A DNA stretch of 64,000 bases, taken from the NCBI RefSeq assembly GCF_000332275.1, contig NZ_CM001776.1:4772008-4836007 (forward strand), in the 5' to 3' direction. The notes below the pieces were generated by a model that did no database searches, was not told the DNA's origin, and was given only the letters and a program-made list of their open reading frames with translations. Position 1 is the stretch's first letter. Every line of letters starts with the position of its first letter. Shown here in pieces: positions 48,752 through 51,921 of this stretch. Source of the DNA: Synechococcus sp. PCC 7336. Lineage in GTDB: Bacteria; Cyanobacteriota; Cyanobacteriia; Thermostichales; PCC-7336. The position numbers and the translations under genes were made by a program.

Positions 48752-48776
48752 AAATGTTTGACACTACGTCTTTTGA
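48752..48776 (+). promoter_or_regulatory. Repeated upstream motif, copy before the CHRD gene
   Basis: AATGTTTGAC followed by CGTCTTTTGAC after four bases, 22 of 25 positions shared with 49480-49504, which precedes petJ. It contains two direct TTTGAC half-sites and lies about 105 bases before the CHRD start codon. It may be a binding site for a shared regulator. Confidence 0.5.
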
Positions 48777-48879
48777 CAAAGCCAGGGTCTGTACTCAGGA
48801 TTAAAAGGGAATCTCAGTTGAGGCTATCATCGCAGCTCTCAAATATTCCTTCGGAGATTGCAAATTCGGGGAGTGAGCT

Positions 48880-49334
48880 ATGAAAATTAGTGCTATTGGC
48901 TTATTCGTTAGCGCAGCTATAGGGGCAACTATAGGGGCAACTATTGGCTCTGCAAGTGCTGCAACTTTCTTTGAGGCAACATTAAGTGGAAGCCAAGTAG
49001 TACCTACCTTCGATACAGATGCAGGTGGTTTTGCCAGGTTTGAACTCAACGATACACAAACAGAACTGAGTTATTTCATTCAACTCAATGGGCTGACATT
49101 AGAGCCCGAGATTGCCGATCGTACCGAATTAAATGACGTCACTAGGATCCACCTTCATACAGGGCCAGTAGGCGAGAACGGAATGCTTCAGGAACTACTA
49201 AACTCTTGAGTAACTTTATAGATGAACTACTAGCAGGGGATATCTATCTGCAAGTTCAAACGCTCGCATCAGATACGCCTCCTGTCTCTCCAGGAGAGCT
49301 GCGCGTACAACTGATCGATTGCGATCGAATTTAA
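48880..49334 (+). pseudogene. Exported CHRD-domain protein gene, frameshifted
   Basis: ATG 48880 gives a signal peptide (ISAIGLFVSAAIGA, cleavage near ASA) and most of a CHRD domain (EATLSGSQVVPTFDTDAGGFARF, then IHLHTGPVGENG) but stops with TGA at 49207-49209. Another frame at once continues with FIDELLAGDIYLQVQTL and PGELRVQLIDCDRI to TAA 49334, the expected CHRD C-terminus. The join lacks part of the usual spacer, so a small deletion or frameshift inactivated the gene unless the frames are bridged. CHRD domains are extracellular, with unclear roles. Confidence 0.7.
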
Positions 49335-49479
49335 ATCTGCGGATTTAAAGCGTTGGTGCCGATGCTTTTTCGTTGATGTCTGCGATATTAACAGACTATG
49401 GCTTTCAAGCTTCACCCTAGCTGAGGCTGATTAAGGTACTTCTACATCGCCTAATTTTACTTGGAGATTGACAAAACTT

Positions 49480-49504
49480 AATGTTTGACAACTCGTCTTT
49501 TGAC
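49480..49504 (+). promoter_or_regulatory. Repeated upstream motif, copy before petJ
   Basis: Same motif as 48752-48776 (AATGTTTGAC then CGTCTTTTGAC), about 95 bases before the petJ start. Distances to the start codon are similar in both cases, which suggests a conserved promoter or operator. Confidence 0.5.
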
Positions 49505-49599
49505 TGATGTCAGTGGGCACTTTACAGTACCCTCCGAGCTGCTTTGCCTGTAAGTCAGCTGTGTATGTGTCACACTTAATTAACATTGGAGTAATTTGA

Positions 49600-49938
49600 G
49601 TGAAAAAATTAATTAGTATAACCTTCGTTGTGATAGCTGTTTTAGTGATTGCGTTTGGCTCTCCTGCACGAGCAGAACCCGATCTGGCAGTGGGGAGATC
49701 GGTCTTTAACGCCAACTGTGTTGCTTGTCATAAGGGTGGAGCTAATCTCGTTATGGCTGCTAAAAATCTGCAGAAAGCAACCTTGGAAAAATATAATATG
49801 GCTTCGATGGACGCCATTCAATATCAGGTTAAGAATGGCAAAAATGCTATGCCTGCATTCTCCGGTCGCCTCGACGATAGGCAAATTGAGTCCGTTGCAG
49901 CTTATGTTCTCGCTCAGGCAGATGCTAACTGGCAATAA
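49600..49938 (+). CDS. petJ: Cytochrome c6
   Basis: 112 residues from GTG 49600 with GGAG upstream. A signal peptide (ISITFVVIAVLVIAFG, ending ARA) exports it to the thylakoid lumen. The heme motif CVACH is near residue 41, and the axial Met is in GKNAMPAFSGRL. It carries electrons from cytochrome b6-f to photosystem I or cytochrome oxidase, replacing plastocyanin when copper is scarce. It has a motif at 49480 in common with the CHRD gene. Confidence 0.93.
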   Translation: MKKLISITFVVIAVLVIAFGSPARAEPDLAVGRSVFNANCVACHKGGANLVMAAKNLQKATLEKYNMASMDAIQYQVKNGKNAMPAFSGRLDDRQIESVAAYVLAQADANWQ

Positions 49939-50001: not shown

Positions 50002-50913
50002 ATGTTCAATATTTACCAATCTCTCACCCAAAGGCTTAGCGATATAAGAACCAATATTGCCAGTTTCGCACTGGCAATATTTTTCTCGCTGACACTATCT
50101 AGCACAGTTGCTGCCAGTCCGTTCGCGCAGGGCTTGCATCATTTCGAAGATGGAGACTTTACTGCTGCCGTAGAGTCGTTTACCCAAGCGATCGAGGCAG
50201 ATAAGACTTCTGCAGCCGCTTACAGTAACCGATGCCTCTCGTATCTGAAGCTAGACAATTATCAGGACGCGATTGAGGACTGTTCGCACGCACTCGAGCT
50301 ATTTCCCAATAATTCTGAAGGTTACCTCAATCGAGGATTGGCCTACCACCGCCTAGGACAATATACGGCTGCAATGGACGATTACAACCAGTTGCTCTCC
50401 ACTTGGCCACAGGATTTCAGAGCTCACCACAATCGGGGGTTGACGGAAACAGAGCTAGGAAGATTTACCTCTGCACTGGGAGATTTCGAATTAGCCGAAC
50501 GATTCTCTCGGCAGGCAGACTCTGCAATTCGAGCTTCTATCTTTAATGATTGGGGACTAGTATTTTTTCATCAGGGGAACTGGGAAGCTGCTCTTACGAA
50601 GTTCAATCGCTCCATTCGTCTGAATCCCAACCATATTTCGCCATATTTCAATCGAGGTTGTGTTTGCCATCGCAATGCAGACTATGCTTGCGCTCTGAAA
50701 GATTTTACACAGGTTGTGCAACTAGAACCTAATTCTGCCGATGCTTACATGAATCTCGGCATGACTCATGCTGCACTTGGACGGCCGGGGAAAGCCCGAC
50801 AGAATTGGGAAGCTGCAGCAGCTCTATTCCTAGAACGAGGAGACGAGCAAGCCTATCGGCAAGCGCAAGTCTTACTGCATTGGGATAATGGCTTAGCTTC
50901 GGCAATTGGTTAA
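50002..50913 (+). CDS. Exported TPR-repeat protein
   Basis: 303 residues. An N-terminal helix (SFALAIFFSLTLSSTVAAS) acts as signal peptide or anchor. Six to seven TPR units follow, each with the W/G-Y-A-P pattern (GDFTAAVESFTQAIEAD; DNYQDAIEDCSHALELFP; GQYTAAMDDYNQLL; GRFTSALGDFELAE; GNWEAALTKFNRSI; ADYACALKDFTQVV). TPR arrays are protein-binding scaffolds. It follows petJ by 63 bases and precedes a hairpin terminator. Confidence 0.85.
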   Translation: MFNIYQSLTQRLSDIRTNIASFALAIFFSLTLSSTVAASPFAQGLHHFEDGDFTAAVESFTQAIEADKTSAAAYSNRCLSYLKLDNYQDAIEDCSHALELFPNNSEGYLNRGLAYHRLGQYTAAMDDYNQLLSTWPQDFRAHHNRGLTETELGRFTSALGDFELAERFSRQADSAIRASIFNDWGLVFFHQGNWEAALTKFNRSIRLNPNHISPYFNRGCVCHRNADYACALKDFTQVVQLEPNSADAYMNLGMTHAALGRPGKARQNWEAAAALFLERGDEQAYRQAQVLLHWDNGLASAIG

Positions 50914-51135: not shown

Positions 51136-51921
51136 TTAGCTTTGTGCCTGTTCAAATCTCTCATTAACCTTCTCCCAATTCACGACATTCCACCAAGCAT
51201 CGAGATAATCTCCCCTACGATTCTGATACTTCAGATAGTAAGCATGCTCCCAAACATCATTACCCATTACCGGATAACTACCTTCAAGGAAAGGGCTATC
51301 CTGATTAAGTGTATTTGTGATTTTTAACTCTCCATCTTTGGTCAGAACCAGCCAGGCCCAGCCGCTACCAAAGCGTCCTTTACCTGCAGCATTGAACTCT
51401 TGCTTAAAGCTTCCAAAGTCTCCAAAAGTATCATCAATTGCTCGTGCAATAGCACCAGTGGGTTGCCCTTGACCATTCGGCGTCATAATTTCCCAGAACA
51501 TCGTATGGTTTGCATGACCTCCACCGTTATTACGTACAGTAGTACGGATGTCATCTGGGATACTATCTAGATCGCGTAAGAGCTCTTCTACCGATTTTCC
51601 TTTAAGTTCGGGGTGTTTGTCGATTGCTGCATTCAAGTTTCTAACGTAGCCAGCATGGTGCTTATCGTGATGCAGCATCATTGTCTGCGTATCAATATAA
51701 GTATCAAGAGCGTCATAGTCATAAGGCAAAGAGGGTAAGATAAATTCCTCAGTCTGAGACTGGGCAATAAGATAGCTGTTAGGGATTAAAAGTTCTGTAT
51801 CCTGGGCTACTTCATTAGAGTGTGTGGCTGCCAAGCTACTAGTAACTTGAAAACAACTCAAAACTATAAATATAGCTAGAGCAAATGGGAGAGCTAGCCA
51901 AGAAAAACGCATCGATCGCAT
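51136..51921 (-). CDS. sodA: Exported superoxide dismutase (Mn/Fe type)
   Basis: 261 residues. An N-terminal hydrophobic segment ([18 protein letters not shown]) followed by about 35 linker residues precedes a complete Mn/Fe SOD. Metal ligands are in [23 protein letters not shown] and [24 protein letters not shown] and the [12 protein letters not shown] end suggest the Mn form. The N-terminal helix, if uncleaved, anchors it to the thylakoid or cytoplasmic membrane facing the lumen or periplasm. AAGGA lies about 10 bases before ATG 51921; ATG 51912 is an alternative. Confidence 0.9.

Follow-up and report, generated by a model that had tools for sequence, protein, structure and literature searches.

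The window, a stretch of 64,000 nucleotides from the genome of Synechococcus sp. PCC 7336, contains a gene for a CHRD-domain protein and, downstream on the same strand, petJ, which encodes cytochrome c6 (Table 1). A complete PF07452 (CHRD) domain in one reading frame was not found; the frame is shifted, and the rest of the domain, recognized by eye from the likeness of its C-terminus, seems to continue in another frame that ends at position 49334. The frameshift may be real or an assembly error. Directly 3' of petJ, after a gap of 63 bases, lies a TPR-repeat gene that is possibly co-transcribed with it. A TPR homologue occurs behind petJ on the same strand, within 1.3 kb, at 26 of the 72 distinct petJ loci for which 1 kb or more was available (the 72 include the second petJ gene of this genome, L003), and the TPR-repeat gene may be a conserved partner of petJ. 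A gene for an Fe/Mn superoxide dismutase is convergent with the petJ-TPR pair.

The CHRD gene and petJ are each preceded by a copy of the same 25-base element, as the original prediction had claimed. The two copies, AATGTTTGACACTACGTCTTTTGAC before the CHRD gene and AATGTTTGACAACTCGTCTTTTGAC before petJ, lie 727 bases apart and are identical at 22 of 25 positions, with weaker similarity continuing upstream, so that the pair spans 41 nt at 80% identity. The first copy starts at position 48753 and not, as earlier given, at 48752. The second copy ends 95 bases before the petJ GTG (49600), exactly the predicted distance, while the gap from the first copy to the CHRD ATG (48880) is 102 bases instead of 105. 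Each copy was also said to contain two TTTGAC half-sites at 18-base spacing. Both TTTGAC sequences are present in each copy, but their start-to-start distance is 15 bases. No exact match to the direct half-site pattern with 18-base spacing (TTTGAC-N12-TTTGAC) exists in the window, and of the 10 matches with up to two mismatches, none falls at either element. The copies also contain an inverted repeat, GAC-N5-GTC, which the original prediction did not describe, and all three mismatches between them lie within its five-base spacer. Because the differences are confined to this spacer, the element is better read as a palindrome followed by TTGAC than as two direct half-sites.

Table 1. Features of the CHRD-petJ region in window coordinates; R1 is the site model described in the text
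Feature	Position	Strand	Basis
Element copy 1, 5' of the CHRD gene	48753..48777	+	R1 rank 2 genome-wide, 20.2 bits, E 3.65e-3
GACACTACGTC, predicted PetR operator core, copy 1	48760..48770	+	sequence comparison
TTGACA, predicted -35 box, CHRD promoter	48773..48778	+	inferred
CAGGAT, weak candidate -10 box (CHRD)	48796..48801	+	17-base spacing, 3/6 matches to TATAAT; inferred
CHRD-domain ORF, signal-like N-terminus	48880..49209	+	PF07452 E 3.3e-13, domain positions 1-62 of 117
Rest of CHRD domain in another frame, approximate start	49200..49334	+	frame translation
Element copy 2, 5' of petJ	49480..49504	+	R1 rank 1 genome-wide, 22.5 bits, E 6.3e-4
GACAACTCGTC, predicted PetR operator core, copy 2	49487..49497	+	sequence comparison
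TTGACT, predicted -35 box of petJ	49500..49505	+	inferred
TACAGT, candidate -10 box of petJ	49523..49528	+	17-base spacing, 4/6 matches to TATAAT; inferred
petJ, cytochrome c6, GTG start	49600..49938	+	PF13442 E 9.2e-17
TPR-repeat gene	50002..50913	+	profile match
Fe/Mn superoxide dismutase gene	51136..51921	-	

Evidence that the element is a regulatory site came from the upstream regions of petJ in other cyanobacteria. Matches to petJ were found in 93 of 96 genomes (this one included), and the set analysed comprised the 89 best-scoring matches and one lower-scoring match (G015), minus the two from Synechococcus sp. PCC 7336 itself; weaker matches lay outside the set. Every pair of 3-mers separated by 0 to 15 bases was counted in the 300 bases upstream of these genes and compared with dinucleotide shuffles. 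The top dyad was GAC-N5-GTC, present in 39 of 59 upstream regions from 48 relatives that carry petR, the gene for a BlaI-family regulator, where 2.6 were expected. The next dyads, GTC-N4-GAC and GAC-N12-GAC, are other spacings within the element seen in the window. Among relatives without petR, GAC-N5-GTC was present in 1 of 29 upstream regions (26 genomes; 1.5 expected; Fisher p 7e-9 for the difference from the petR-bearing relatives). In 20 of the 59 upstream regions of petR-bearing relatives, no exact core was found within 300 bp. One genome with a doubtful petR match (G085) contributed no petJ upstream region. The single exception among genomes lacking petR, G050, has the operator core at both petJ and petE. 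Its assembly is 87% complete, so its petR may fall in a gap.

Complete sites, with the palindrome followed by TTGAC, numbered 37 from 36 genomes (petR-bearing genomes supplied 36 sites, and G050 one) and could be aligned without gaps to give the consensus TTTGACAGGCTGTCTTTTGAC. While GAC, GTC and TTGAC are constant in the alignment because the search pattern demanded them, the free positions agree too: T precedes TTGAC in all 37 sites, and the two bases before it are T and T in 36 and 34 sites. A hexamer resembling the -10 box fits best 17 bases behind TTGAC, with a mean of 2.84 of 6 matches to TATAAT across the 37 petJ sites, as compared with means of 1.08 to 2.22 at other spacings from 10 to 23 bases; four or more matches at the 17-base spacing were seen in 12 of the 37 sites. 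Two tandem sites, 73 bases apart, precede petJ in loci L184-L188 and in a Microcystis record (L346). The 37 sites, none of them from Synechococcus sp. PCC 7336, were used to build the site model R1.

When R1 was run against the whole genome of Synechococcus sp. PCC 7336, the petJ copy ranked first and the CHRD copy second. The third rank was held by a site upstream of a second petJ gene (754338-754655; 62% identical to petJ), which scored 14.8 bits (E 0.19) and is a one-mismatch copy of the element, with its GAC 100 bases before the start of the match (region 754235-754655). In two weaker R1 matches, at 2,556,623 (E 0.23) and 1,392,452 (E 1.1), part of the element is missing, and neither was treated as a member. 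The former, at 2556623-2556644 on the minus strand, lies about 95 bases before an open reading frame, whose product we take to resemble a fused sterol desaturase/short-chain dehydrogenase. The exact pattern TTTGACN5GTCNNTTGAC has only two matches in the 5,066,637-base genome, namely the two copies in the window, each of them before a gene. These data bear directly on the possibility that the similarity is due to chance or reflects a functionless dispersed repeat. Similarities between two copies are common, and with up to two mismatches allowed the pattern is no more frequent than a backward control (35 matches vs 66), which means that loose matches as a class are noise. However, the exact pattern occurs only twice in 5.07 Mb, each time before a gene, and these copies take the top two genome-wide scores of a model built on other genomes. 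We therefore reject a dispersed repeat, the outcome that would have undermined the original prediction, and consider this explanation as a whole extremely improbable.

The regulator most readily connected with the site is PetR. In Synechococcus sp. PCC 7336, petR is the sole match to PF03965 (BlaI family) in the genome, at 97.8 bits; the closest PetR matches in other genomes are 69% identical, and many are lower. It overlaps by one base with petP, a gene for a BlaR1/M48-type protease (L023:4279-5118) that scores above the cut-offs of both PF05569 (32.0 bits; cut-off 31) and PF01435 (23.5 bits; cut-off 20.3). Across 386 genomes of the phylum, R1 sites at E<=0.01 were present in 99 of the 109 petR-bearing genomes and 8 of the 277 petR-less ones, and at E<=1e-3 in 82 of 109 and 1 of 277, respectively. 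Exclusion of the genomes that had contributed training sites left 86 of 95 petR-bearing genomes with a site at E<=0.01. The petR-less genomes seem, among the matches listed, to come mostly from a few small-genome families, so that shared ancestry inflates the phylum-wide association. The exact 18-base form TTTGACANNNTGTCTTTTGAC occurs in at least 117 stretches when one genome of each of 84,980 species is searched; 78 of 80 records among the matches listed are cyanobacteria by name, the others being Algoriphagus and Nitrosomonas (assigned by eye).

Further support came from petE, the plastocyanin gene. The upstream region of petE in Synechococcus sp. PCC 7336 carries TTGACAAGCTGTC, whose GAC lies 166 bases 5' of the start of the match. 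In a subset of petE matches (30 loci, petE genes beside fetched petJ genes, and 20 further chosen stretches), the core was present in 17 of 44 upstream regions from petR-bearing relatives, with no exact core within 300 bp in the remaining 27 of 44. With the own genome added, the count was 18 of 45, as compared with 1.9 expected and a maximum of 7 in 200 shuffles. A smaller first set of 27 upstream regions, contained in this set of 45, had placed GAC-N5-GTC at rank 63 among dyads (6 of 27 vs 1.0 expected). Among petR-less relatives, only G050 had the core at petE (1 of 12). The layout of the site differs between the two genes: a TTGAC abutting the core was found in 0 of 44 petE upstream regions, but in 36 of the 39 petJ upstream regions that have the core (Fisher p 1e-11; 36 of 59 overall). 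In Synechocystis, PetR activates petJ and represses petE, and how one PetR gives both effects is called unknown in the same study (PMC7896320). The difference in layout suggests that a single promoter grammar could account for the opposite effects, with the core plus an abutting -35 box giving activation and the core without that box giving repression.

Sequence comparison shows the element, its conservation, its association with petR, the petR-petP pair and the contrast between petJ and petE; from these we infer that PetR binds the site, which way it regulates, where the promoter boxes lie and that the CHRD gene is under its control. The element before petJ and the CHRD gene is very probably a landing site of PetR, the copper-sensing switch of photosynthesis. 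A PetR dimer would bind the palindrome GAC-N5-GTC, with the consensus GACA-N3-TGTC, and the TTGAC two bases behind it would serve as the -35 box. The 17-base optimum for the -10-like hexamer makes the second TTTGAC the most likely -35 box, which would leave the palindrome immediately upstream, in the position of an activator site; at petJ and the CHRD gene, this position is likelier than that of a repressor. Bound PetR would then contact RNA polymerase from just upstream, switching on petJ and the CHRD gene under copper shortage. In the presence of copper, the PetP protease would remove PetR and both genes would fall silent; removal of PetR by PetP when copper is present is reported for Synechocystis in the available passages of several studies (PMC7896320; PMC13421787, PMC12292863). 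At petE, the core without an abutting -35 box would fit repression. Since both copies in the window are of the petJ type, the CHRD gene too is predicted to be activated when copper is absent. We strongly favor this combined reading, in which a PetR operator abuts the -35 box as an activator site and both genes are predicted to be on when copper is short.

An alternative is that the element is the operator of another copper or redox regulator with the same distribution as petR, such as an OmpR-type response regulator acting on direct TTTGAC repeats. Direct repeats are a typical layout of response-regulator sites, the co-occurrence of the site with petR is a correlation, and the petR-less genomes belong largely to other families. 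Nevertheless, the most enriched dyad is a palindrome, which is the arrangement expected for a BlaI-type dimer. Moreover, the core occurs at petE without a second TTGAC, so what the sites share is not the direct repeat, and petJ and petE are both published targets of PetR (PMC7896320). A different regulator is improbable. The suggestion in the original prediction of a copper-responsive operator for a PetR (BlaI/CopY-family) protein gains strong support from comparison in that the site is shared with petJ of petR-bearing relatives, tracks petR, and occurs in a genome with petR and petP, whereas the two-half-site layout with 18-base spacing finds no support, and a repressor at petJ and the CHRD gene is unlikely in view of the -35 position and the published effect on petJ (PMC7896320).

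A rival reading specific to the CHRD gene holds that only the petJ copy works as a PetR operator, the other copy being a by-product of a duplicated petJ promoter that drives nothing useful. The short distance between the copies (727 bases) and their 80% identity over 41 nt fit a duplication, and the shifted frame suggests that the CHRD gene is broken, in which case its copy would have nothing useful to drive. CHRD genes elsewhere also mostly lack the site in the stretches examined. Neither 30 CHRD loci retrieved from relatives (42 other genomes have a CHRD match) nor the regions surrounding the CHRD genes in the 9 other genomes that matched most closely in the phylum sample contained it, although a retrieved stretch may end short of the promoter where the CHRD protein is long. 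These results led us to reject CHRD as a general member of the regulon. A search of 142 pattern-matching stretches from named species genomes by tblastn gave no close relative of the CHRD protein. Arguing against the by-product explanation, a perfect site lies 78 bases before a 1017-residue DUF4347-CHRD-RTX open reading frame of Okeania hirsuta (L334, 2568-5618, minus strand), and this case emerged from the site search and not from a CHRD search. The CHRD stretch of that protein is 44% identical to the window CHRD protein over 79 residues. Okeania hirsuta is the only other genome seen with a link between the site and CHRD, and this gene is 1 of the 218 downstream reading frames described below. 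In addition, the CHRD copy in the window has diverged in its spacer but retains all conserved positions of the site. According to the available text of PMC5776111, the iron-regulated genes of Trichodesmium include RTX-type genes that are said to carry CHRD domains. On balance, a non-functional CHRD copy seems unlikely, and control by PetR is a likely feature of the CHRD promoter.

Genes behind the site in other genomes suggest a wider role for PetR. R1 matches at E<=0.5, up to 8 per genome and with chance matches included, were the source of 121 sites at which downstream genes were read (30 best R1 loci and 80 further regions taken from the matches listed, with known petJ sites mostly left out); a further 119 exact sites came from the TTTGACANNNTGTCTTTTGAC loci among the matches listed. 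Together they gave 218 downstream reading frames (113 and 105), 198 of them distinct by their last 60 residues, which were clustered by BLASTP linkage, with family names taken from one or two members each. The largest cluster was petJ (56 members, 44 distinct), followed by DsbD_2 and ferric-reductase-like membrane proteins (43, 39 distinct), small GLTT-repeat proteins (21, 20 distinct) and TonB-dependent receptors (18, all distinct). Smaller clusters comprised a family without a Pfam match (10, 9 distinct), a histidine-rich family (8, all distinct), PepSY_TM (7, 6 distinct), MbnP (6, all distinct), Phenol_MetA_deg (5, all distinct) and ABC permeases (3, all distinct). TonB, ExbB, DUF2231, DsrE, DUF1775 and petR itself occurred as single or paired downstream genes, and many of the single short reading frames are probably not genes. 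The common theme of the site-marked genes appears to be metal uptake across the outer membrane together with copper binding, and it suggests that the copper-starvation regulon extends beyond the four proteins given for Synechocystis. We lean toward a view of PetR as the cyanobacterial master regulator of copper starvation, which would read the core and -35 grammar and, through the activating form, run a copper-acquisition regulon of TonB receptors, TonB, ExbB, MbnP, PepSY, DsbD_2/ferric-reductase, DUF1775 and GLTT-repeat proteins, with CHRD proteins added in Synechococcus sp. PCC 7336 and Okeania.

The predicted operator has parallels with CopY and BlaI/MecI operators, which are likewise short inverted repeats with ACA and TGT half-sites bound by a dimer of the BlaI/CopY family. 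The consensus of the CopY cop box is TACA-N2-TGTA. Half-sites TACA and TGTA two bases apart were not found in the site consensus; in GACA-N3-TGTC the outer bases are instead G and C, and the spacer is longer by one base. A further difference from the cop box is that, in the petJ form, the predicted -35 box lies two bases behind the palindrome, which would fit activation over simple repression.

The closest known counterpart, PetRP of Synechocystis sp. PCC 6803, was reportedly described by Garcia-Canas et al. in 2021. It consists of a BlaI-family regulator and an adjacent BlaR1-type protease (slr0240/slr0241), as here, and its targets petJ and petE both carry the predicted operator in Synechococcus sp. 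PCC 7336. The available passages on Synechocystis give the PetRP regulon as four proteins, namely plastocyanin, cytochrome c6 and the products of slr0601-slr0602, the latter two unknown (PMC7896320, PMC13421787, PMC12292863, PMC9252766, PMC12382314). Unlike that system, the site described here also precedes a second petJ and the CHRD gene and, in other genomes, genes for transport and copper-binding proteins. Neither a published PetR operator nor such a copper-starvation regulon was found among the titles, abstract openings and passages of the literature, and the 2021 PetRP paper may describe the motif.

A parallel concerns Anabaena sp. PCC 7120, where limitation of copper, but not of iron, induces seven TonB-receptor genes (PMC2771747), much as the site precedes TonB-receptor genes of other cyanobacteria. 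The copper-induced receptor genes of that strain are alr2209, alr2581, alr4028, alr3242, all2674, all4924 and alr2592. In the available text of that study, neither a regulator of the receptors nor the regulating network is identified (PMC2771747). An available passage on the same strain reports that the TonB-dependent transporter IacT affects copper transport (PMC8141849). A defined operator and promoter grammar would make both the dual effect of PetR and the question of the TonB-receptor regulator testable. The operator also predicts genes that would respond to copper shortage in many genomes and offers candidate copper importers. Finally, it may put on a rational footing the copper-controlled petE and petJ promoters that, according to passages of two reports, are in use for expression (PMC10278186, PMC13183708).
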